DNA of 64,000 nucleotides, taken from contig JAFUFB010000009.1 of NCBI GenBank assembly GCA_017470145.1, positions 1-64,000 of the forward strand, in the 5' to 3' direction. The stretch is from Clostridia bacterium. Its GTDB lineage: Bacteria > Bacillota > Clostridia > Christensenellales > Aristaeellaceae. The position numbers and the translations under genes are program-made. Of this stretch, positions 469-33,157 are shown in pieces (the stretch's first letter is position 1; each line of letters begins with the position of its first letter). The notes under the pieces were generated by a model. It saw only the letters and a list, made by a program, of their open reading frames with translations, was not told the DNA's origin and ran no database searches.

Positions 469-3189
469 TCATTCAAGCCGTATCGGGTTCAGGTCTTGCC
501 GATATTTCTTGTTCAGCAATGTCCTCCCTGTCGAAGCACTGTAAATTGAGTGCTGATTATGCTTGATCGCGAATTCTTTGGCCGCCCGCTCGTCCTGACA
601 TTCAAAACTGACTTCCGGGTTTCCAAAGTAGCCGATGTTTACGCCCGTGGCTCCCAATTCTTTCATGGCAATTGCACACATGGCCGCATAATCCCGATCT
701 GAGTAAGCTCCCAGAGGATCTGTCTCCGTGTTGTTCTGATGGAACGTAACGCAATAACCGCTGGTGACGTTCTTTAGGTTGCCGTTCACATCATAGGTGT
801 TGTAATTCTCAACGCCCGGATGATCCTCAAGAAAGTTCTCGACCTTTCTTCGCACATCCATGTACTTCGGAATTTCTGCTTCGATTTCAGGGTGCTCTGC
901 CACATATCGATCAACATAGGCCTTCGTTGCCTTTGGCCCGCCAATTGCCATGGCTGCTTTTAGACCCTTCCACCCTAAAACACTCTTCCCGGAGGCTGGT
1001 TTGTTCTTTTCCGCCTCCTCGGATATATTATAACTTGTGTTCGATGATTTTACAATAGGCTCTGCGTGGAAATTTTCGCCCTCGGAGTGTTTTTTGTTGC
1101 TCCGGCTTTCGGATTTGACCTCCGCCATGGTTTTGCCCTTCAAGGCGGCGGGGCCTTTATCCACCCTTCCGCCGGAACCATCGGTGAAATGCACCTTGGC
1201 GCCGTTGACGGTACGCCAATTGTCATCCTCCGCATCCCTGGCATTGCGCCGGAATAGGTTTGTCAGCACATCGGCCAGGAAGCTCCTGCGGGGCTTCTCG
1301 GGCTGTTTCTGGGCTTTCTCGGCATCCTCTTCCAGGCGCTGCCGGGTTTCCCTAACAATCCGCTTCGCCTCTTCCAGATCCCCGGCGGCCACCGCTTCGG
1401 CCACATCGGTCTTCATCCGGGCCAGCATCCGTCGCTGCTCGGCGTTGGGCTTTAGATTCTGCCAGAAGGAATCGGTTTCTTTTGCTCCCACGGCGTCCTC
1501 CTGTTTTTCCGTTTCTTTGGCCCCTTTCAGGGCTTTCAGCTTTTCGGTCATCGCTTCCTCGCCCTCACCGCCAGAAGCCCGCTCTGGCTTCACCTGGGGC
1601 TTCCTGGGCGGGTTCTGGGGTTTCTGGGGCATCTTCACGATGTTATTCGGCTTTTCTTCCGGTTCCGGCCCTTCCCCAGGTTCTTTTCCTGGCTCATCCT
1701 CCGGGGCTTCCGGCCCTTCTGGCATCGGGCCGCCCATCATGCCGCCCATTCCACCCATGGGATCGCCGCCCATCTCGCCGCCGTCCACTTCCTCGTCCGC
1801 AGCTTCCACAATCTCGTCCGTGAGGGAAGTCCAAATGCCGATATCCTTGCCATTCTTCCGCATCTCCGTCAGGGCGGTTTTCTGGGATATCAGGCCAGAA
1901 TTGAAGGCCTCTATCACGGTGCCGGTAATCTGCTGGGCAATGTTGGAACGCTCCGCCGGGGTGGTTACCTGCAAGGGCTCGAACACAATCCGCTGCACTC
2001 CGTCCGGGATTTTGCCCCACAGGCTCATGCACATAACGGGCATCAGCTTATCAATGGCAGGCCGCAGGTTCCGCTCTTGGAGCTGGGAAAGCATCTCATA
2101 ATAGTTTTTCATGTCGCTCTCGCCCGTGGCGTTCATACCCTGGGGAGAACGGCCATAAAGCTTCGTTGCGGGGATTTCCGCCGCGCCAGCCATATCCATC
2201 ATGAAGGATTCATAGATTTCAGACAGGCCTGAGAAGGAATAGGGGTGCTGCTCATAGCCGTCCTCGCTGCCCATGATCATCATGCCGAAGGAGGTGCGGA
2301 AACGGTTTTCCTCATGGATACTGTTCACGATCTGCTGTTTCTGCTTCTCGGTGCCCATGCCCATGACTTCGCCAAAGTCAGCCATTTTCAGCACGCCCAC
2401 ATTGGCCTGGAAAACCAGCTGAGCGATGTTCGCGCTGGTGGCGTTCCGCTTCTGCAATTCCTCATAGACATGCTCCAATTCGGAAGCGCCCCAATAGCTC
2501 TCGCTGATCTCCTCGGTAATCGGCAGCATCCGGCCCCGGAACATGAGCAAGCGGGAATGGTGAACTCTCACCGTCTCGTTGGTCTCATTATTCAGGCGCA
2601 CGGTGTAATACTTCGGATAGCCGAATTCCGGGTCATCCATATCCTCTTCCAGGTCCAGGGAGGGGTCCAGGCCGCTGGTGCGGTCTACCACGATGAGTCC
2701 CCGGAAGCACCCCGGCATGAGGTCATCATAATCCAGAGGCTGATCCAACATATCCTCCTGGCCCTTAATCACCATCACCGCCGCCGCACCGCCATACAAC
2801 CGGGCCCAGCGCAGGGCGTTGGTGATTTCCTGTTTCACGCTGTGCTTCGTTTCCAGCTCCGCCAGCTCATCTATCTTATCCTGATCCAGAGCAGAGGAAA
2901 CGGAGTACCAGGCGCGGGTCATGTCCTCACAGGGGGTGTCGATAATCCGCTTCGCAATCCAGTTTTCCCGATAGAGCACAGTCAACAGCTCATAGTCTCG
3001 GGTGATTGAATTCCGCTGGTAATCATTCGATTCATTCAGGGGGGACGCTTCGCCCAGGAAGGCCGCCTGATTGACATATCCGTCTCGGGCCGCCAGTAAG
3101 GACAGGGGCATCGCGCCCTGCTTTTCAGCTTTCGCTTCCTGTGCCTGCCGCTGGGCCGCTCGAATGTTTCTGCGCCGTTTGCTGGACAT
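469..3189 (-). CDS. Phage portal protein, DUF1073/Acb1-N-like family, with long C-terminal extension
   Basis: Residues about 40-450 resemble the DUF1073 portal family (PF06381), whose members form the dodecameric DNA-entry ring of the capsid. The position directly after the large terminase supports this. A Gly/Met/Pro/Glu-rich linker (about 470-560) and a charged helical stretch (about 575-660) follow. Then comes a short module with NGAKVHF (about 670-700) and a separate C-terminal domain (about 770-906) containing GYCVTFHQN and NPEVSFECQ. At 906 residues it is roughly twice a bare portal. Some DUF1073 relatives carry an Acb1 anti-CBASS domain at the C-terminus, but I cannot see the paired HxT/S motifs of Acb1 here. 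An AAGGAGGTGA site precedes the ATG. Portal role likely; tail function unknown. Confidence 0.85.
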   Translation of the reverse strand: MSSKRRRNIRAAQRQAQEAKAEKQGAMPLSLLAARDGYVNQAAFLGEASPLNESNDYQRNSITRDYELLTVLYRENWIAKRIIDTPCEDMTRAWYSVSSALDQDKIDELAELETKHSVKQEITNALRWARLYGGAAAVMVIKGQEDMLDQPLDYDDLMPGCFRGLIVVDRTSGLDPSLDLEEDMDDPEFGYPKYYTVRLNNETNETVRVHHSRLLMFRGRMLPITEEISESYWGASELEHVYEELQKRNATSANIAQLVFQANVGVLKMADFGEVMGMGTEKQKQQIVNSIHEENRFRTSFGMMIMGSEDGYEQHPYSFSGLSEIYESFMMDMAGAAEIPATKLYGRSPQGMNATGESDMKNYYEMLSQLQERNLRPAIDKLMPVMCMSLWGKIPDGVQRIVFEPLQVTTPAERSNIAQQITGTVIEAFNSGLISQKTALTEMRKNGKDIGIWTSLTDEIVEAADEEVDGGEMGGDPMGGMGGMMGGPMPEGPEAPEDEPGKEPGEGPEPEEKPNNIVKMPQKPQNPPRKPQVKPERASGGEGEEAMTEKLKALKGAKETEKQEDAVGAKETDSFWQNLKPNAEQRRMLARMKTDVAEAVAAGDLEEAKRIVRETRQRLEEDAEKAQKQPEKPRRSFLADVLTNLFRRNARDAEDDNWRTVNGAKVHFTDGSGGRVDKGPAALKGKTMAEVKSESRSNKKHSEGENFHAEPIVKSSNTSYNISEEAEKNKPASGKSVLGWKGLKAAMAIGGPKATKAYVDRYVAEHPEIEAEIPKYMDVRRKVENFLEDHPGVENYNTYDVNGNLKNVTSGYCVTFHQNNTETDPLGAYSDRDYAAMCAIAMKELGATGVNIGYFGNPEVSFECQDERAAKEFAIKHNQHSIYSASTGRTLLNKKYRQDLNPIRLE

Positions 3190-3209: not shown

Positions 3210-4454
3210 TTAGGCCCCAATTCCCTTATCCAGGAGCCTTGCACAGCAGGCCGCACTATCCGGCGCGTCATCATGCTCCGCATCCTGGGTGTAATCCAAA
3301 ATCTGGGCCACATAATCCGGGTCTGTTCCTTCCAGGAACTTGATGTTTCCCCACCACTTTCTGAGGTAGGTTGAAATCTTGACGTACTTATTCAGCGATT
3401 CATGATATCCATGCGGGTAACGGCCCTTCCGCCTGATCTCCTTCTTGAGATAGCCCTTGTCGGCGTTATCCTCCACATTGATAGGATAACAGGCCAGGCG
3501 GTCGCAATCCTCAATGATCGCATCCAGTACGGTGTCCACATGCTTCTGCCACAGACGGCCATACATATAAATGGTGTCCCCTACCCGCTTGGCGCAGGTG
3601 AAGGCCGTTCCATCCTCGCCGCCATAAGCGGCATCAATATGGGCAATGCCATCCCGGAGCAGCTTCGCATCCTTGAAGAACTCGGGAGATTCACTGAACA
3701 GAGCATTCTCTGAAGCGATATGCCGCAACTCATAGTTGGCGGCAAACAGAGAAGGCGCCATATCCCTGCGGAGCTGGGCAATCTTCTCCTCACTAAGCAT
3801 CCCCGTCCGATGATAATCCCAGATTTCCGGGCGGGGCATAATGGTGAACGCGTCCTCCTTATGCCAGGGAGTGCCGGTGTTGATGATCCGGCCGCCAGGG
3901 TTGCGGACATTCTGCAACTCCTGGTATACGCTCTTGGTGTGCTCCCGCTCCGCTTTGGAGATACGGTCCTTCAGGTTGACAATATCGTCCGTAATCACGA
4001 TATCCGCATGCTTACCGGTCAGAGATCCCGAAATACCCATTCCCAGCAATTGGGAGGCCCCTCGGGGAGCGCTGTAGCAGGAGGTGGTGATTTCGTTCGC
4101 CGTGGCTCGGAGAACAATCAATTTGAACCCAGTCAGGGCTTCATACACCTGCTGGAAGATATCCGAATTCAGGATACGATTCACGTTCTTGATGACTTCC
4201 GTCACGTCCGTGTCGGTCTTCCGCAGGAAGATGATGTTCTTGCTCCGGTCTCGAACCATCATCAGGGCAATGGCAATGCAGAGGCAGGTGGTCTTATATG
4301 ATCCACGGTGGGCCTGTAGGGTAAAATCCTCGGTCCCGTTCATCATGTTTACAATCCACTGCTCATGCATCTCATTCAGATTGGAATAGCCCAGGGCCTT
4401 CCCCAGGGCCATCGGGTGAGCAATGAACCAGGCCGCTTTTTCCTTCTGCGTCAC
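3210..4454 (-). CDS. terL: Phage terminase large subunit (ATPase and nuclease)
   Basis: This is the DNA-packaging motor that cuts and pumps phage DNA into the prohead. The deviant Walker A AHRGSYKTT is at about residues 48-56, Walker B DIVITDD at 151-157, and the coupling motif NTGTPW at 192-197. The C-terminal RNase-H-like nuclease has acidic residues in HIDAAYGG (about 272-279), VEDNADKG and DDAPDS. The length of 414 residues is slightly short for the family. Its start overlaps the small-terminase stop by 4 bp, and the portal follows after 20 bp, the usual TerS-TerL-portal order. Confidence 0.93.
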   Translation of the reverse strand: MTQKEKAAWFIAHPMALGKALGYSNLNEMHEQWIVNMMNGTEDFTLQAHRGSYKTTCLCIAIALMMVRDRSKNIIFLRKTDTDVTEVIKNVNRILNSDIFQQVYEALTGFKLIVLRATANEITTSCYSAPRGASQLLGMGISGSLTGKHADIVITDDIVNLKDRISKAEREHTKSVYQELQNVRNPGGRIINTGTPWHKEDAFTIMPRPEIWDYHRTGMLSEEKIAQLRRDMAPSLFAANYELRHIASENALFSESPEFFKDAKLLRDGIAHIDAAYGGEDGTAFTCAKRVGDTIYMYGRLWQKHVDTVLDAIIEDCDRLACYPINVEDNADKGYLKKEIRRKGRYPHGYHESLNKYVKISTYLRKWWGNIKFLEGTDPDYVAQILDYTQDAEHDDAPDSAACCARLLDKGIGA

Positions 4455-4975
4455 TTGGCATCGCTCCCGTCTTTTTCCTCCGGCCCGCCCAGCATCGAGA
4501 ATGCATCATCCAGGGCGGAGTATCCGCTGATCCCCTGTTTAAGCGCTTCCTTCTCGGCTTCCAGCCGTTCCCGCTCCAACAGCACCTTGGGGTCCTGGTT
4601 GGTTATCTCCATCCACATCTGAATTGCTCGGGCATCCCCGCGCATAGCTTTCTGCTGTAGGGCTACAAAGGTCAGGAAACCGGCGGTATAAGAGCCGTCC
4701 TCCGGGTCAGCGCCCATCTTAATCAGCCCATCTCTCAGGACTGGGGTCAGCACCGGCTTATAGCTCATGATTTCCTCAAGCATCTGCCGGGCCGTCCTGG
4801 TTTCCCGCTGAACCTGTTGAGATTTCTTCCCGCCTTTTCGGGCTGTCTCTACCTGTTGTCTGCCTGCTCTAAACCGAGTCGCCTTTCCATTCTCTGGCTT
4901 CAAATTGGCGTTGCTTTTTGCTCGGCTTTCAGCAACTTCCTCGGGCGTCTTTCTCTTAGTCGGCAACCGAATCAC
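4451..4975 (-). CDS. terS: Probable phage terminase small subunit
   Basis: The 174-residue product has a basic N-terminus (about 1-60), a helical middle (about 60-140) and an acidic tail, and sits immediately before terL with translational coupling (4-bp overlap). Small terminases recognise phage DNA and regulate TerL. The call rests on position, size and general composition; no diagnostic motif is visible. The start is a GTG inside the 3' end of the cytosine methylase gene, without a clear ribosome binding site, so an internal start is possible. Confidence 0.65.
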   Translation of the reverse strand: MIRLPTKRKTPEEVAESRAKSNANLKPENGKATRFRAGRQQVETARKGGKKSQQVQRETRTARQMLEEIMSYKPVLTPVLRDGLIKMGADPEDGSYTAGFLTFVALQQKAMRGDARAIQMWMEITNQDPKVLLERERLEAEKEALKQGISGYSALDDAFSMLGGPEEKDGSDAK

Positions 4976-6035
4976 CCGGCCTTAACCACTGGCGCTCCAC
5001 CTCTTTGGCGATCCTCGCCATCATCACTGGTGGCACGCTCATTCCGCACACATACTGCGGCGGCTGGTCGATAAAGTCATAATCCTGCGGAAAGGTCTGC
5101 ACGTTGATGAAATCCTGCTTGCTCATCCCCATGCCATCATACATCCGAAAATAGGAACCGCCGCTGGCGATGGTTCCACACACCTGATCGTCTGACCAAA
5201 TGTAGTTTGTGAAGCCCTTATACTGTCCAGAAAGTCTCTCGTTGATATCCGCTAATTTCCGGTCCGTCGGCTTCCTGTTATCCAGGAGCATTTTCAGTCT
5301 CGAACCTTCTTTCAACGGTACCCCCCCTTCTGACCTGACTTCACCAAACAGAATCGGCTTCTCATGGAAACCGAGCTGAATCTTCGGAAGATCCAAATCA
5401 TTCCGCTGGGCCAGGAAGAACACTCTCTCCCGCCGCTGGGGAACGCCCATGCTGGCGCCATTCATCAGGAACATCTGGGGCTTATACCCCGCCGCCCGGA
5501 AGGCCTTGAAAATCTCATTGACATATCCCTTGGCATTCCCGGCGGTCAGCCCCTTCACGTTTTCGGCAATGACCACCTTGGGTTGTAGCTTCTTCGCAAT
5601 ATCGATAAACCAGAAGAACAGGTCATCTAAGCGCTGCATCTTCTGGCCCTCTCGGAACTGCTTCTCGGTGTTCCAGCCCTTTTCCCGTTCTCCCGCAGAG
5701 CTGAACACGCTGCATGGCGGGGAACCGTCCAGGATATCCAGATGGAGCAAATCCTCCGGCAGTTTATCCCGGTCAATAGCTCCGAATTCCCGGACATCCA
5801 TGTTGTAGTTATACTTGGGGTGGTGGTTCGCCACATACACCTTGTTCATGGCGTGATCAATCTCGCAGTTGCCAATCACGGTGTATCCGGCCAATTTGTA
5901 TCCCATAGAGGAACCGCCGCCGCAGGAGAAACATGAAAATACTTTGAGGCCATTTTTCTCCACGGCATCCAGGTCCTTGAGATACCACTTCCAGTTATAG
6001 CTCACTGAAATGGAACCCGCATTCTGGACATTCAT
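4956..6035 (-). CDS. DNA (cytosine-5) methyltransferase
   Basis: The 359-residue product carries the ordered C5-methylase motifs: a glycine-rich AdoMet loop VFSCFSCGGGSS (about 32-43), the catalytic GSPPCS (Cys near 108), AENVKG (about 157-162) and PQRRERV (about 199-205). It also has a terminal motif X helix, VPPVMMARIA. The ATG at 6035 has GAGG at good spacing; an upstream TTG/ATG pair at 6071/6068 is also open. It overlaps the ParB-like gene upstream and the small terminase downstream. A solitary methylase in a packaging cluster most likely protects phage DNA from host restriction. No cognate endonuclease is visible. Confidence 0.9.
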   Translation of the reverse strand: MNVQNAGSISVSYNWKWYLKDLDAVEKNGLKVFSCFSCGGGSSMGYKLAGYTVIGNCEIDHAMNKVYVANHHPKYNYNMDVREFGAIDRDKLPEDLLHLDILDGSPPCSVFSSAGEREKGWNTEKQFREGQKMQRLDDLFFWFIDIAKKLQPKVVIAENVKGLTAGNAKGYVNEIFKAFRAAGYKPQMFLMNGASMGVPQRRERVFFLAQRNDLDLPKIQLGFHEKPILFGEVRSEGGVPLKEGSRLKMLLDNRKPTDRKLADINERLSGQYKGFTNYIWSDDQVCGTIASGGSYFRMYDGMGMSKQDFINVQTFPQDYDFIDQPPQYVCGMSVPPVMMARIAKEVERQWLRPGDSVAD

Positions 6036-6477
6036 ATTCGAAGGCCTCATCTCCGAAATCGTCCTCATCAAATTCCATGCCGGTGTCTACCCGCTCGCTG
6101 CGGTCCTTCTGCTCATCCTCGAAGCCGAACTGCAGCATATCGATTTCATCCCCGATGAAATCCATAGCCTCGGTCAGGAGCGGTTCATCCCAAACGGCCA
6201 TTTCAGCCACCCGGTTATCCACCAGGCGATAAGCCCGAATCTGATCCTCCGTCAGGTCATCTGTGGATACGGTGGGCACTTCATTCAAGCCCAGCTTCCG
6301 CGCCGCCAGCAGGCGAGTATGCCCGCACACAATCACGCTGTCATTATCCACCACAATTGGTACCAGGAACCCAAAGGCCTGAATGCTGGCCGCCACCTTA
6401 TCAATGGCTTTCTGGGTGTCCCGGGGGTTGCGCATATAGGGAATCAGCTCGTCCAGCGATCTGTAAACGACATTCAT
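5995..6477 (-). CDS. ParB/Srx-like nuclease-fold protein (third copy)
   Basis: The 160-residue product has a ParB N-terminal-type domain (about 1-115) with the GHTRLLAAR nucleotide-binding motif at about 52-60, the most conserved feature of this fold. An acidic linker and a single CPECG pair follow at the C-terminus, as if a zinc ribbon were half lost. The start overlaps the stop of the previous ParB-like gene by 4 bp and the end overlaps the methylase start. There is no ParB DNA-binding HTH, so a plasmid-partition role is unlikely. Phage ParB-like proteins next to methylases are common but poorly understood. Confidence 0.8.
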   Translation of the reverse strand: MNVVYRSLDELIPYMRNPRDTQKAIDKVAASIQAFGFLVPIVVDNDSVIVCGHTRLLAARKLGLNEVPTVSTDDLTEDQIRAYRLVDNRVAEMAVWDEPLLTEAMDFIGDEIDMLQFGFEDEQKDRSERVDTGMEFDEDDFGDEAFEYECPECGFHFSEL

Positions 6478-7010
6478 TCCAGATCACCTTCCTCTTCCGG
6501 GTCGTAGCTCTCGGATTCAAAATCCTCAGTGCTATATTCTATGGCTTTCTGGCGCAGAATTCTCGCCCCGCATCTGGGGCAAATCACCCACTGCGGGTCT
6601 TTGGTCGCTTTTGCGGCCTTTTCCTTCTTCGGTTTCATATCAAAGCCGAAAACGGACATATCAAAGGCGCCAGCCAGGTCATCCAATTCAGTAGCCAACA
6701 GGCCCACATCCCAGGAAGCGAATTCCCCGGTCTTATTATCGGCCAATTGGAAGGCTTTTAGCTGCTTCTTGGTCAGCTTATCCGCCACCACACAGGGCAC
6801 TTCATCAAGGCCCAGCTCGATTGCGGCCTTGAGGCGGGTATGGCCGGCAGCCACATGCCCTTCCGCATCTATCACGATTGGCACCCGGAAACCGAATTGC
6901 CGAATGCTTTCCTTTACACCCGGAACCGCCGCATCATTGCGCCGGGGGTTATCCGGGTCAGGGAGCAAATCGGCCACATGCCAATTTGTGATCTCAATCC
7001 TTTCCTGCAT
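6474..7010 (-). CDS. ParB/Srx-like protein with C-terminal zinc-ribbon remnant (second copy)
   Basis: The 178-residue product is paralogous to its two neighbours. A ParB-N domain has AAGHTRLKAA at about 54-63. Downstream of about residue 140 is a basic linker with CPRCGARI and an acidic tail. The ATG at 7010 is preceded by AGGAGGG; a TTG 33 bp upstream lacks a site. An intrinsic terminator lies between the first ParB gene and this one, so the two may not be expressed equally. The substrate is unknown; the fold binds nucleotides (CTP in ParB, ATP in sulfiredoxin). Confidence 0.8.
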   Translation of the reverse strand: MQERIEITNWHVADLLPDPDNPRRNDAAVPGVKESIRQFGFRVPIVIDAEGHVAAGHTRLKAAIELGLDEVPCVVADKLTKKQLKAFQLADNKTGEFASWDVGLLATELDDLAGAFDMSVFGFDMKPKKEKAAKATKDPQWVICPRCGARILRQKAIEYSTEDFESESYDPEEEGDLE

Positions 7011-7045
7011 TTTTCCCTCCTGATTTTTTCGATGATATAACAAAA

Positions 7046-7067
7046 CCCCACGGCCTCTGCCGCAGGG
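7046..7067 (-). terminator. Intrinsic terminator between the first and second ParB-like genes
   Basis: Read leftward, a 9-bp stem (7059-7067 with 7046-7054, two G-U pairs) with a 4-nt loop is followed by TTTTG. It lies after the stop at 7081 and before the ATG at 7010, so the late operon must pass it by partial readthrough or antitermination. Confidence 0.6.
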
Positions 7068-7080
7068 TTATGTACCTGAG

Positions 7081-7971
7081 TCAATGGTTATCAATCGAAA
7101 TCACGGTCAGCACCGTGTAGCCGGCCTCCACCAGCAATTCTCGCATGGCCTTCACCGTTCGCCCGGTTGTCAGGATGTCATCATAGAGAATCACGTTCTT
7201 CTCCTCCGGCCAAACATGCATCGTGAACTCCGGGTTTATCCGGTCCCTGTTCTTGCAGGTGGCTACATCGGGATAGAACGGAATCAACAGCTCCCCGGCA
7301 ATATACTCACATACCGCCGTTGCGAAGTGAAAACCTTCTGCGTGTCTTCTCCTGGGCGTGGTCAGTAAGCACCATCCGCATTCGCTGAGATTTCCTCCAC
7401 TCATCTCTCGAATGAACTCAATGGCGTTTTCCGCAATAAACGGAACATGCTTCTCTGTTTTGATGCTTTCCAAAGGAATGCCCTTGTTCCCCGTCTTCAT
7501 AAGACACTGGTAATACTCGCCATTGGCTTTTCTTACCGTCACCTTATCAGTCAGGTCACATTTTTTCTTTGATTCGGCCCAGCGTTTTTCCTTCTTCACA
7601 TCATCCGCGAAGTCAAAACCAAAATCCAGGTTGCCAAAGTCCAGGCCCATCAGCTCACCCGCCAGCAGATCCTTGTCCCAGGCGGCATATTCTGAGGTCT
7701 TGTTATCGATCAATCTGTATTCCTGAATCTGTTCCTCTGAGAGGTTGTCTATCACCACACAGGGAACTTCCTTCAGGCCCAGCTTCTTAGCAGCCTGAAA
7801 TCTGGTATGACCGTTGATGATCGTTCCATCCGCTGTCACTTGCAGTGGGGAACGAAAGCCGAATTCTTTGATAGAGGCGGCCACCGGATCAATCGCGTCT
7901 TTATTTCTTCTCGGATTCTTCTTATAGGGATGAAGCTCGCTCATGCTTTTGTATACAATTTTCTCCTGCAT
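7081..7971 (-). CDS. ParB-like domain fused to a type I phosphoribosyltransferase domain
   Basis: Residues about 1-125 form a ParB-N domain with NGHTRFQAAKK at about 53-63. Residues about 150-296 form a phosphoribosyltransferase-like domain with the PRPP-binding signature VILYDDILTTGRT at 260-272. Upstream, LTTPRRRHAEGFHFA recalls ComF-type transferases. Type I PRTases attach or release ribose-5-phosphate on bases, so a nucleotide- or base-directed reaction is plausible, but the substrate is unknown. The ATG at 7971 follows a GA/GG-rich GAGGGGGTGAG. It is the first gene after the iteron-controlled late promoter and its terminator. Confidence 0.85.
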   Translation of the reverse strand: MQEKIVYKSMSELHPYKKNPRRNKDAIDPVAASIKEFGFRSPLQVTADGTIINGHTRFQAAKKLGLKEVPCVVIDNLSEEQIQEYRLIDNKTSEYAAWDKDLLAGELMGLDFGNLDFGFDFADDVKKEKRWAESKKKCDLTDKVTVRKANGEYYQCLMKTGNKGIPLESIKTEKHVPFIAENAIEFIREMSGGNLSECGWCLLTTPRRRHAEGFHFATAVCEYIAGELLIPFYPDVATCKNRDRINPEFTMHVWPEEKNVILYDDILTTGRTVKAMRELLVEAGYTVLTVISIDNH

Positions 7972-8011
7972 CAGGCTCACCCCCTCACAGAGAACCCAGG
8001 GCAAAAATAAA

Positions 8012-8036
8012 AACCGCGGAAGCAATCCGGCGGTTT
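8012..8036 (-). terminator. Intrinsic terminator immediately downstream of the late promoter
   Basis: Read leftward, a stem of about 9 bp (ACCGCCGGA with TTCCGCGGT) around a 4-nt loop is followed by TTTTATTTTT (about 8003-8012). It lies only about 20 bp after the predicted start of transcription from the late promoter and about 40 bp before the ParB-PRTase start codon. A promoter followed at once by a terminator resembles the lambda pR' arrangement. Confidence 0.78.
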
Positions 8037-8046
8037 CCTTACACCT

Positions 8047-8070
8047 TTGGTGATTATATTATAGCACCAA
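8047..8070 (-). promoter_or_regulatory. Inverted repeat overlapping the late -10 box (candidate operator)
   Basis: TTGGTG (8047-8052) and CACCAA (8065-8070) are inverted with a 12-bp spacer that contains the TATAAT of the late promoter. A dimeric protein bound here would block polymerase. Confidence 0.45.
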
Positions 8071-8086
8071 TTTTTTCGGCTGTCAA
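8058..8086 (-). promoter_or_regulatory. Consensus sigma-A late promoter
   Basis: On the minus strand TTGACA (8086-8081) is separated by exactly 17 bp from TATAAT (8063-8058). Both boxes are perfect consensus. The -35 box directly abuts the last 11-bp iteron. Transcription would start near 8051 and run into the ParB-PRTase, methylase, terminase and portal genes. Confidence 0.8.
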
Positions 8087-8191
8087 CGTGCCAAAAACGT
8101 GCCAAAAACGTGCCAAAAACGTGCCAAAAACGTGCCAAAAACGTGCCAAAAACGTGCCAAAAACGTGCCAAAAACGTGCCAAATTCGTGCC
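8085..8191. repeat. Ten 11-bp iterons upstream of the late promoter
   Basis: CGTGCC recurs at 8087, 8098, 8109, 8120, 8131, 8142, 8153, 8164, 8175 and 8186, each unit being AACGTGCCAAA. The last copy has a slightly altered spacer. The 11-bp period is close to one helical turn, so all copies face the same side of the DNA. They fill the gap between the small membrane-protein gene and the -35 box. They look like a cooperative binding array for a phage regulator. Confidence 0.9.
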
Positions 8192-8202
8192 ACGGCATCC
8201 CT

Positions 8203-8364
8203 CTAAGCATTGGAATCATTGGGTTTCAGGACTTGCTCGAAAATCCACGTTTTTCCATACTTTATCAGGGCCTTTGTCAGGATGATTTTTCCAATCCTGG
8301 AAATAAACAAATCTCCCACGATGGCTCCCCCGATCATCAGAATCAAAATCTGCCACCATTCCAC
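8203..8364 (-). CDS. Small single-pass membrane protein, 53 residues
   Basis: The reading frame begins with GTG at 8364 preceded by AGGAGG at 8-bp spacing and stops at 8203. The product starts with EWWQILILMIGGAIVGDLF, a clear membrane segment, followed by a basic amphipathic stretch (SRIGKIILTKALIKYGK) and a hydrophilic end. It lies between the ArpU-like regulator and the iterons, co-oriented with both. No family is recognised. A small inner-membrane protein at this position could act in lysis timing or superinfection exclusion, but that is inference. Confidence 0.6.
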   Translation of the reverse strand: MEWWQILILMIGGAIVGDLFISRIGKIILTKALIKYGKTWIFEQVLKPNDSNA

Positions 8365-8379
8365 CTATTTTTCCTCCTT

Positions 8380-8880
8380 TCACGCCGCCATTTCATAAAT
8401 CTTTTCCATGGCCCGGTCATAGATTCGCTGCGCAGAGCGCTTCGAACAACTGCCGCCAAATTCCCGACTGAACACATACACGATCTGTGCCCAGGAGCTA
8501 TCGTTAAAGGTCTTCTCCTGCACCGCCAGCTTTTCCCGATCGCTCAGCCCATTCATCCATTTATCGACGCAGGAAAGCAGGTGGCCGCTGCGCGACAATT
8601 CATCCTGGATTGTCGCTATCTCCTCCTCCACCTGCTTCACGAACACACTTACATTGCCCATCGCAATATCCAGTGCTAAATTCCCCACCGGGTCCCCCAC
8701 GGTGGTTCCGTGGGGCATTCCCGTAATTGCCTGACTCATGGAAACCTGATCCCCGATCATCTGCTGTTTGTTCTCTTCCAGTGCTGCCTGCAGCACCTCC
8801 AACTGCCCCCGCAGGTATTCACACCGCGCCAGCGTCGGTTTGTATCTCTTTAGCAGCTCATCCACACGTTCCCGAGTCAT
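8380..8880 (-). CDS. ArpU/RinA-like phage late transcription regulator
   Basis: The 166-residue product has a helical N-terminus (about 1-45) and a C-terminal sigma-region-4-like part: LSDREKLAVQEKTFND, then SWAQIVYVFSREF and a basic recognition-like helix SKRSAQRIYDRAMEK (about 110-165). RinA and ArpU family members activate packaging and late genes in Gram-positive phages and lie just upstream of the terminase region, as here. The late promoter with iterons is downstream. The iterons are the natural candidate binding site, though this is inferred from position only. Confidence 0.7.
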   Translation of the reverse strand: MTRERVDELLKRYKPTLARCEYLRGQLEVLQAALEENKQQMIGDQVSMSQAITGMPHGTTVGDPVGNLALDIAMGNVSVFVKQVEEEIATIQDELSRSGHLLSCVDKWMNGLSDREKLAVQEKTFNDSSWAQIVYVFSREFGGSCSKRSAQRIYDRAMEKIYEMAA

Positions 8881-8905
8881 CTCAATTCACACTCCCGTAA
8901 TCACA

Positions 8906-9352
8906 TCAAAAGGGCAGGTCATCCACATCCACTGGCTGCATTCCGCTGGACACATCCGGCACAGCTGCGGCGGTGGTCACTTCGGCCTGGCGGGCCTCCT
9001 GGGCTGGCACATAAGCGCCTCCGCTGCTTCCATCGTCCTCGCCCCTGGCGGAGAGGAATTCCACCTCCCTGGCATTGATTTCCAGGCTGGCGCCCACCGA
9101 CTGATCCTGCCGGGTGAAGGCCCTGGCGCTTACAGGGCCGGTTACACAGACCTTCTTGCCCTTCGAAAGGAACTTCGCGCAGTTTTCGCCCAGCCGGCCC
9201 CAGGCAGAGACATTGAAGAAATCCGCTTCTTTGCTGCCGTCCTTGCTGGGGCGATTCACGGCCACGCGAAAATTGCATACAGATTCCCCATCCGTGAAGG
9301 ACCGCACCTGCGGGTCCGCTGTCAGGTTGCCAATAATGATTGTCTTGTTCAT
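8906..9352 (-). CDS. ssb: Single-stranded DNA-binding protein
   Basis: The 148-residue product begins MNKTIIIGNLTADPQVR and has an OB-fold (about 1-105), a flexible Ala/Glu/Gln-rich linker and the acidic tip DVDDLPF, the classic tail through which SSB recruits replication and repair partners. The start overlaps the upstream stop in ATGA. In the phage early operon it would coat ssDNA during replication and RecT-mediated annealing. Confidence 0.93.
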   Translation of the reverse strand: MNKTIIIGNLTADPQVRSFTDGESVCNFRVAVNRPSKDGSKEADFFNVSAWGRLGENCAKFLSKGKKVCVTGPVSARAFTRQDQSVGASLEINAREVEFLSARGEDDGSSGGAYVPAQEARQAEVTTAAAVPDVSSGMQPVDVDDLPF

Positions 9353-9756
9353 TTCTCCCCTACCTCCGTTTTCTGAATCCTTGCAAAAGGCTCATCCAGG
9401 TTGATTTGCAGGCTGGTCTTTTCCAGCACTTCCTCCACCAGCTCTGCGTGCTCAATGGCCCAGACGATTTTCCGATCTACTGCCCGCACGGCCTCAAAAC
9501 ACTGGTCATCGTCAAAGCCAAATTCTTCCTTCAGGGCCAGAATCACCGCTGCATAGCAGCTCTTGGTCACATTCACGCTGCCCTCTCCGTAGCCAGTTTC
9601 CCAGCCCTCCCGGTAATTGTTTTCCAAATCCTCCGGCGTAATGCCGTTCTGAACCAGCCGGGCCATCATCTGCTGTTTGCCATAGGTGCGAATCAGCTCC
9701 TTATCCCGATCAATCTGACTCCGCATCATCTTCCGCCGCTGCGCCCTGTTCGCCAT
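9349..9756 (-). CDS. Phage protein of unknown function
   Basis: The 135-residue product has a basic N-terminus (MANRAQRRKMMRSQ) and then largely helical sequence with NYREGWETGYGEG near residue 47. It ends four bases inside ssb and has a good AAGGA site. Similar RAQRRK-starting proteins are frequent near SSB in Firmicutes phages, but no activity is known to me. Confidence 0.7.
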   Translation of the reverse strand: MANRAQRRKMMRSQIDRDKELIRTYGKQQMMARLVQNGITPEDLENNYREGWETGYGEGSVNVTKSCYAAVILALKEEFGFDDDQCFEAVRAVDRKIVWAIEHAELVEEVLEKTSLQINLDEPFARIQKTEVGEK

Positions 9757-17169: not shown

Positions 17170-17931
17170 CTATCCGTACACGAAATTAAATTCCTCTTCC
17201 CGTTCTCCGGGCCTGGGCATCCCTGCGTTTTTCAGCACCTTGCGCAGATAGCGCATCTTATCCCCGGAAGCCCCGGCGCATTCATCAATGGCGTTCAGCA
17301 TGGTTTCCAGGCCATACTCGGTATAAAGCTGAACCGCGTCATCCATAATCTTGCTGTTCAGGACGAAACCACAGTATTTCATACGGTCAAAGATGGCGTT
17401 ATGGTCCCCCGCAATCTGCTCCGCCTCGCCGTCTGGCAAAAATGGCGGCGGCGATGCCTCGCGCGCGGGCGCGCTATTCGTCATCGTCTTCTTATTCTTA
17501 GTCGTATTCTTATTCTTGTGCATTTGTCCGACATCTGTCCGACAAATGTCCGACAAAAGTCCGGCATCGGTCGCTTGGGTGCTGCCATCCGTCGGTTGCT
17601 CGCCGTCTGGCTCGGGAAATTTGCTCTTGGCTGCGCGAATGCGCTGGTGCTTATCCCAGGTCACGATTTGAAGGTATCTCTCCCCGGAGGCCCAGTAGCT
17701 TTTGATCAGCGAAACACGTTCGAGAGTTTCAAACGCTTCGTCGATAGACTTCACTGTCAGGTCTCCCTTACGGGGAAAAAGCTCACTCTTCAATATCGTT
17801 GAATCCCGATAAAACCGCCCATAATCATCCGCAGTCACCAATAACCGATAAAAACAAACCTCCTCAAACCAGCTCAGATCGTTGATGGTCTTGCTGTACT
17901 TGACAGAATCCTTGATCATCCGCCATGCCAT
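17170..17931 (-). CDS. Phage replisome organizer / DnaD-like replication initiator
   Basis: The 253-residue product has an N-terminal winged-helix-type domain (KYSKTINDLSWFEEVCFYRL through SELFP, about 10-55), typical of phage replisome organizers that recognise the origin. A low-complexity linker (about 100-160) precedes a DnaD-like C-terminal helical region (about 175-240) that would load the helicase. The ATG at 17931 overlaps the upstream stop (TGATG). The linker includes repeated ATGTCCGACA-type sequence (about 17524-17555), a possible origin. Confidence 0.82.
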   Translation of the reverse strand: MAWRMIKDSVKYSKTINDLSWFEEVCFYRLLVTADDYGRFYRDSTILKSELFPRKGDLTVKSIDEAFETLERVSLIKSYWASGERYLQIVTWDKHQRIRAAKSKFPEPDGEQPTDGSTQATDAGLLSDICRTDVGQMHKNKNTTKNKKTMTNSAPAREASPPPFLPDGEAEQIAGDHNAIFDRMKYCGFVLNSKIMDDAVQLYTEYGLETMLNAIDECAGASGDKMRYLRKVLKNAGMPRPGEREEEFNFVYG

Positions 17932-18164
17932 CAATCCCTCACCGCCCTCTGATTCCAGCAGGTCACCGCCTTTCGGACCGCCGGGTTATCCAATTCATTG
18001 CGAAGGCCTCCTAAATCATCCAGGTTGATCGCATCCCCCCTCGTTCTTGCTCTGCACACGTTGCATTCCACAAAGTAATAGCGCCGCTGAAAACGGCTGT
18101 CGTTATGACCAATGGTCACGTGGGTGCTGCCACAGAATGGACAGCTCTTCAGGGAAATATCCAT
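17931..18164 (-). CDS. Lar family restriction-alleviation-like protein
   Basis: The 77-residue product reads SCPFCGSTHV (about 7-16), YFVECNVCRARTRG (about 30-43) and ends AVTCWNQRA, the full Lar signature of two zinc-binding pairs followed by A..xWNxR. Lar proteins modulate type I restriction-modification. It is coupled to the replisome organizer by a 1-bp overlap. Confidence 0.78.
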   Translation of the reverse strand: MDISLKSCPFCGSTHVTIGHNDSRFQRRYYFVECNVCRARTRGDAINLDDLGGLRNELDNPAVRKAVTCWNQRAVRD

Positions 18165-33028: not shown

Positions 33029-33052
33029 TACGCGCGGTATGCTTTTTCTGCT

Positions 33053-33142
33053 CCCCCGCTTCGCGGGGGACTCCCTGCATTTTCTATCCCCCGCTCCGCG
33101 TGGGACATCGCCCTGAATTTTCTTTCCCCCGCTTCGCGGGGG
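33053..33142. repeat. Cluster of REP-like GC palindromes
   Basis: CCCCCGCTTCGCGGGGG occurs at 33053-33069 and 33126-33142, with a decayed copy at about 33087-33105. The last copy is followed by ATCTTTTATTTT and can terminate trpEG transcription. The same core recurs at 36.2, 42.8, 43.9 and 57.8 kb. Confidence 0.75.
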
Positions 33143-33157
33143 ATCTTTTATTTTGCA

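Follow-up and report, generated by a model that had tools for sequence, protein, structure and literature searches.

The window analysed here, the first 64 kb of the 89-kb contig JAFUFB010000009.1 from a 2.45-Mb, 84% complete metagenome assembly of a Clostridia bacterium (GCA_017470145.1), carries on its minus strand a compact cassette made of ten 11-bp direct repeats, a promoter, a short leader, and an intrinsic terminator. The array most likely serves a late activator of the RinA/Alt/Ltr type as an enlarged operator, and the cassette is quite likely the late-gene control region of a temperate phage infecting a Clostridiales bacterium. A preliminary description of this DNA had placed such a control region here, and the gene order agrees with it, ParB-like, methylase, and terminase genes lying downstream of the cassette. 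Operators of this kind are known, and the array is an enlarged example; the part deserving follow-up is the promoter-proximal terminator, which is conserved and common to unrelated phages. In temperate phages of Gram-positive hosts, packaging and lysis are governed by RinA/Alt-type late switches, for which our results suggest two rules. First, the operator is often a series of repeats helically phased at 11 bp, with a word that differs from case to case. Second, an intrinsic terminator often stands at the head of the late operon, close to the promoter and at an almost constant spacing from it, which raises the question of how late transcripts pass it.

The array consists of ten copies at 11-bp spacing, nine of which carry the exact word TTGGCACG; the farthest copy is altered. 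Tandem Repeats Finder gives it a score of 202, at the top of 35 rows in the window, and all 8 occurrences of the pattern CGTGCCAAAAACGTGCCA (at most one mismatch) in the 2.45-Mb assembly lie within it. The repeats run into a promoter, TTGACA-17-TATAAT (8086-8058, minus strand), with 12 of 12 matches to the consensus and a 17-bp spacer ending in TGC. Repeat and promoter scans thus confirm the iterons and promoter of the preliminary description. This is the only promoter-like site between 7000 and 9500, where shuffles of the stretch average 1.4 sites at the same 9-of-12 threshold. Transcription is predicted to start at 8051. The terminator, AAACCGCCGGATTGCTTCCGCGGTTTTTATTTTT (8036-8003), begins about 15 nt past this start, and the predicted short RNA is about 49 nt long. 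Its hairpin was seen by folding an 80-nt stretch that is not exceptional as a whole (z -1.65). The stem has one bulge, and the terminator was missed by both a consensus scan and a strict contiguous-stem script because neither permits a bulge.

To place the cassette among its relatives, we used pattern searches and ParB profiles, which gave nine cassettes in total, window included. The eight others, all in viral contigs, have diverged bases and 2-6 copies at 11-bp spacing, followed by a near-consensus promoter, a leader, and a terminator. Copy numbers over the nine cassettes are 10, 6, 3, 3, 3, 3, 3, 3, and 2 (for the contig that we label G065, the 3 is a count by eye). In eight cassettes, the offset from the start of the nearest copy to the -35 is 8 bp; in G065 it is 7 bp (by eye). 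The -35 is TTGACA in 8/9 and TTGACG in the remaining one, and TG stands ahead of the -10 in 8/9. In the window and seven of the eight contigs, the ParB gene follows at a distance of 114-122 bp from the -35; the exception is G065, where no ParB match was found within 3 kb of the cassette. One related contig, whose regulator is 69% identical, has six copies with altered spacers, the 8-bp offset to the -35, the promoter, and the ParB gene, and its terminator differs in sequence from that of the window. The strict script finds the terminator in 8/9 cassettes, 19-30 nt past the -10, and folding shows that of the window. Those of contigs G062, G063, and L199 are near-identical and come from close relatives, leaving about seven independent terminator cases among the nine cassettes. 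These results show that the array is neither due to chance nor confined to one genome. Conservation of the iterons in related phages, which the preliminary description had proposed as a check, is found in these eight contigs with a fixed place relative to the -35, and its promoter with an immediate terminator is conserved with them.

Other parts of the cassette are less constant. The same description had an inverted repeat overlapping the -10 box. Its arms, TTGGTG (8070-8065) and CACCAA (8052-8047), are present in the window but absent or broken in the relatives (alignment inspected by eye), and judging from this alignment the inverted repeat is therefore probably incidental. Between the -10 and the hairpin, the leader follows an ungapped pattern, approximately TCA..GAAAG.TgTArG.GAg, that is partly conserved across cassettes. 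Inspection of the leader by eye for an RNA-structure switch revealed no conserved alternative pairing. A second -10-like hexamer begins 5 nt past the first in 9/9 cassettes, at or before the predicted start. Among 18 late promoters of named phages, 12 have such a hexamer at an offset of 8 nt and five have one at 5 nt, and the consensus is approximately TGnTAnAATnGTATTAT. The four spacer bases of the array are nearly identical between copies in the window and vary from relative to relative, the word being kept. The near-identity would point to a recent tandem duplication, and the ten copies, a number read from a metagenome assembly in which tandem copies may be miscounted, look like a recent tandem expansion from a 3-copy ancestor.

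The pattern TTGGCACNNNNTTGNCNNNTTGAC occurs in 23 viral stretches; 6 of these are cassettes, and the remaining 17 lack a good -10 at 17 bp. A pattern search of the same order (at most one mismatch) matched 9/396 genomes, its own and eight others, and on inspection none of those eight showed the cassette. A ParB protein search in the same order (E<=1e-30) matched 5/396 genomes, its own and four others, in which inspection by eye revealed no cassette just upstream. Among relatives of the ParB gene in general, 9 of 72 loci have a terminator in the 100 bp upstream (8 of 80 were excluded for too little upstream sequence), versus 6/366 other ORFs and 22/3600 random stretches. Four of the nine are cassettes already counted, and another two, L159 and L165, have the same terminator. 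Apart from these, a phage with another ParB-like gene (L150, 2858-2960) has a TTGACG-17-TAGAAT promoter with a terminator shortly after it.

The protein that would act on the array is encoded just upstream. Its 166-aa sequence matches the PHROG 36 profile (E 9.1e-13), as does phi11 RinA (E 1.9e-38), and the ArpU/RinA-like gene of the preliminary description is hence RinA-related. In a structure model compared with VIA-align, the C-terminal end matches sigma region 4 domains, most of the rows being long-helix matches to residues 1-111. Over the cassettes, the regulator gene lies at distances of 0.2-7.7 kb; it is close upstream in the window and in G061, and 3.0-7.7 kb upstream in G062, G063, G065, and G436. 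The excerpt of PMC13123087 used here describes Ltr proteins as small and basic, with direct repeats upstream of the late promoter. Such repeats are present in the window. The regulator is small, and its pI of 5.30 is not basic (seven aligned regulators range from 5.3 to 6.6); we therefore regard it as similar to the Ltr proteins in its mode of working, not as one of them.

The preliminary description had considered a repeat array in this place to be without precedent. This is not supported. According to the same excerpt of PMC13123087, the late promoter of phi13 depends on Ltr and on three 18-bp repeats plus a partial one; Ltr proteins in general are described as binding sets of four imperfect repeats, which for TP901-1 Alt are direct repeats lying between -76 and -32. 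Moreover, 11-bp-phased repeats follow ArpU/Alt-like genes in several named phages. We picked 14 further named phages with ArpU/Alt-like regulators for diversity from 50 listed rows, before reading the intergenic sequence (51 records match A118 gp66 and 72 match TP901-1 Alt). A general TTGGCAC motif had to be abandoned, as pairs spaced by 11 bp were significant (p<0.05) in 0/14. A sequence-free test for periodicity at 11 bp, applied to the 180 bp surrounding the stop of the regulator gene, was positive in 9/14 at p<0.05 against mononucleotide shuffles, with period 11 best in eight of the nine and tied in one; this test was devised after the motif had failed on the same phages and is therefore only partly blind. 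The nine span four host groups (Streptococcus, Brochothrix, Geobacillus, and Lactococcus) and hence are not nine independent cases. Among six phages examined earlier, TP901-1 passes (p 0.007), A118 and PSA are at 0.07, and phi11, r1t, and O1205 fail.

The repeat words vary among phages: TGGAGTTTT in Brochothrix phage BL3, TGACGGAAA in Geobacillus phage PK5.2, and ATGGCAC-TTTT-TTGGCAC after gp66 in A118. The resemblance of TTGGCAC to TTGACA, and of the regulator end to sigma region 4, raised the idea that the words mimic a -35. This reading fits the sequences of the window cassette family and was rejected as a general rule, the words of other phages being not all -35-like. We also rejected a sigma-54 promoter: TTGGCACG-N4-TGGCA is one base off the consensus, but the units are tandem and adjoin a sigma-A-type promoter.

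The second rule emerges from the terminators of named phages. Under the strict rule, 12/20 phages have a terminator in the gap between the regulator stop and the next annotated gene, where random stretches taken from these loci predict 1.14, and all 12 lie 38-89 bp before that gene. With phi13 in, B054 out, and the 30 bp before the stop included, the count becomes 15/20, of which 13 come after the predicted -10. The remaining two, in GBSV1 and phiOH2, precede it, and in neither phage does the following gene carry a late-gene annotation. For five of the 13 (Javan84, ul36, TP901-1, phi11, and O1205) the next gene is annotated as small terminase; elsewhere a recombinase gene or a gene without known function takes this place. 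By an automatic -10 call, on which these values depend, the distance from -10 to hairpin is 19, 21, 22, 22, 23, 23, and 31 nt in three Streptococcus Javan/Olis phages, O1205, r1t, PK5.2, and phi13, and 69-482 nt in the six other named phages. Taking the named phages (13/20) and the cassettes (9/9) together, it is 19-31 nt in 16 of these 22. No terminator was found under the strict rule in the region examined in BL3, MissE1, NF5, 62502, and A118. In the record of MM1, the depositors had marked putative promoter boxes and an overlapping terminator ahead of ORF28 and ORF30. No title or abstract start in the literature searched announces such a rule, and the word 'terminator' is absent from the excerpt of PMC13123087.

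The closest known systems each share part of this layout. In phi11, RinA belongs to the same PHROG 36, its gene is directly upstream, TTGGCAG-TAAA-GTGGCAG (11 bp apart) follows rinA, and a terminator precedes the small terminase gene; in contrast, there are two copies rather than ten and the terminator is 69 nt past the predicted -10. TP901-1 also has period 11 after alt and a terminator ahead of terS. However, Alt is of another PHROG and Pfam family (PHROG 2198, DUF722), and the terminator is 451 nt downstream, with a tRNA match in between. For phi13, whose regulator is of Ltr family IV, the likeness is in the repeats upstream of the late promoter (PMC13123087) and in a hairpin 31 nt past the predicted -10; unlike those of the window, its repeats are of 18 bp, not 11. 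Both A118 and phi11 lack a clear consensus -35 by eye, as opposed to the near-consensus promoter of the window cassette family. In lambda, the terminator reportedly lies much farther from the start than in the window cassette. The lambda pR'/Q system also has a late promoter and then a terminator ahead of the late genes. Q-type control further involves a -10-like pause element in the first transcribed bases (in part from an excerpt of PMC7171158), of which the second -10-like hexamer of the cassettes may or may not be the counterpart, as it lies at or before the predicted start. It differs by the phased array that the window has upstream of the -35, and no Q family is among the profile matches of the 166-aa regulator.

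Anatomy, conservation, fixed order, and regulator family are established at the level of sequence. By analogy with phi13 and TP901-1, we infer binding and activation by the 166-aa protein, and it is likely that this protein binds the phased repeats and drives the late promoter, with the terminator blocking basal transcripts. Made in the early phase, the regulator would bind the 11-bp repeats via its sigma-region-4-like end, several copies aligning on one helix face beside the polymerase at the adjoining -35. Once bound, it would switch on the ParB, methylase, and terminase genes and those beyond. The terminator, about 20 nt past the -10, would halt basal transcripts and early readthrough ahead of the late genes. 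Since the near-consensus promoter could fire alone and the terminator is 21 nt away, a role as a brake on basal transcription makes most sense. Productive late transcription would have to get past it. Strong initiation with leaky readthrough comes close to an even chance of being the way; antitermination loaded at the promoter is a more tentative proposal, and Q-like antitermination at the cassette is possible, as is the readthrough by a modified polymerase suggested in the preliminary description. A wider idea, which we consider rather unlikely, is that RinA/ArpU/Alt-like sigma-region-4 proteins do in Gram-positive systems what Q does in lambda. Stacked on phased repeats (here -35-like words), they would start the late promoter and, at a pause close to it, also modify the polymerase to disregard a terminator 20-30 nt on; the unit would be a general late switch of Firmicutes phages.

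A plain insulator is a serious contender, falling somewhat short of an even chance: the terminator would only stop readthrough from the early operon, and the activated promoter would leak enough polymerase past it, with no antitermination. The late promoter does lie directly behind co-directed upstream genes, leaky terminators are common, and the terminator of relative L103 has a weak T-run. Furthermore, the phi13 reporter (-200 to +50), whose activity requires Ltr and the repeats, ends at +50, so that control is apparent even though the fragment includes no more than part of the hairpin downstream; these reported data (PMC13123087) show that initiation too is controlled. Yet an insulator would work better upstream of the promoter, and 13 of the 15 named phages with a terminator have it after the predicted -10. 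The narrow range of the -10-to-hairpin distance in 16 sequences, three of them close relatives, is also unexpected for an insulator. The position of the terminator after the promoter argues for control of the late transcript over mere insulation.

The promoter and terminator have the complete anatomy of a small-RNA gene, and an RNA of about 50 nt could be the product, with the late genes driven from elsewhere. In the Listeria phages, the stretches after the late regulator overlap Rfam matches to the small RNAs rliG (A118; L225, 9655-10026) and rli62 (PSA; L228, 6480-6615). We regard this reading as improbable: the leader is only partly conserved, the hairpins diverge, four cassette loci run against Rfam gave no match, and the promoter is the sole candidate in 7000-9500, the only stretch scanned for promoters. 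Rfam also matches an mcrA RNA further downstream in PSA.

A repressor operator silencing the strong late promoter in the lysogen would account for a near-consensus promoter with an array abutting its -35. This is even less probable, as helically phased sites upstream of a -35 are the usual activator arrangement and TTGGCAC is found elsewhere in the window only as five scattered single copies. The related systems in the excerpt of PMC13123087 activate. Finally, ten iterons adjoining three ParB-like genes might evoke a partition site, or an origin for a replication initiator, but this is very improbable given that in Pfam these genes match only the N-terminal ParB domain, that the repeats keep a fixed register to the -35 in 8/9 sequences, and that most relatives have only 2-3 copies.

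The features of the locus are listed in the table below. The window begins at the contig start, and the minus-strand late operon therefore runs off the contig end.

Coordinates of the late-gene cassette and its neighbours in the window
Feature	Position	Strand	Remarks
Late regulator gene, 166 aa	8380..8880	-	PHROG 36 (family of phi11 RinA); C-terminal sigma-region-4-like helix-turn-helix
53-aa ORF between regulator gene and array	8203..8364	-	matches no family
Ten 11-bp direct repeats TTGGCACGTTT	8087..8193	-	nearest copy begins 8 bp upstream of -35; diverged copies in 8 viral contigs
-35 box TTGACA	8081..8086	-	
-10 box TATAAT	8058..8063	-	TGC before it
Inverted repeat TTGGTG/CACCAA across -10	8047..8070	.	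not conserved in relatives
Leader ATAATCACCAAAGGTGTAAGG	8037..8057	-	partly conserved; predicted start 8051
Intrinsic terminator, hairpin and T-run	8003..8036	-	21 nt past -10; position conserved in relatives
ParB_N-like protein, first gene past cassette	7081..7971	-	weak C-terminal phosphoribosyltransferase-like match
Second ParB_N-like gene	6474..7043	-	
Third ParB_N-like gene	5995..6477	-	
C5 cytosine methylase	4956..6071	-	
174-aa gene in small-terminase place	4451..4975	-	PHROG 2412 (unknown function)
Large terminase	3210..4454	-	
906-aa ORF, putative portal	469..3189	-	assigned in the preliminary description only

The phosphoribosyltransferase-like match of the first ParB-like product falls below the Pfam cut-off. 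Upstream of the regulator, a 254-aa ORF (17170-17934, minus strand) contains 4.3 imperfect copies of another 11-bp unit, CATATGTCCGA, at 17521-17567, and a further run of 11-bp repeats was seen in L066 near 54-130; both may be origin iterons inside a replication gene. A 38-bp tandem repeat at 33044-33143 of the window (2.7 copies) contains a GC-rich hairpin.
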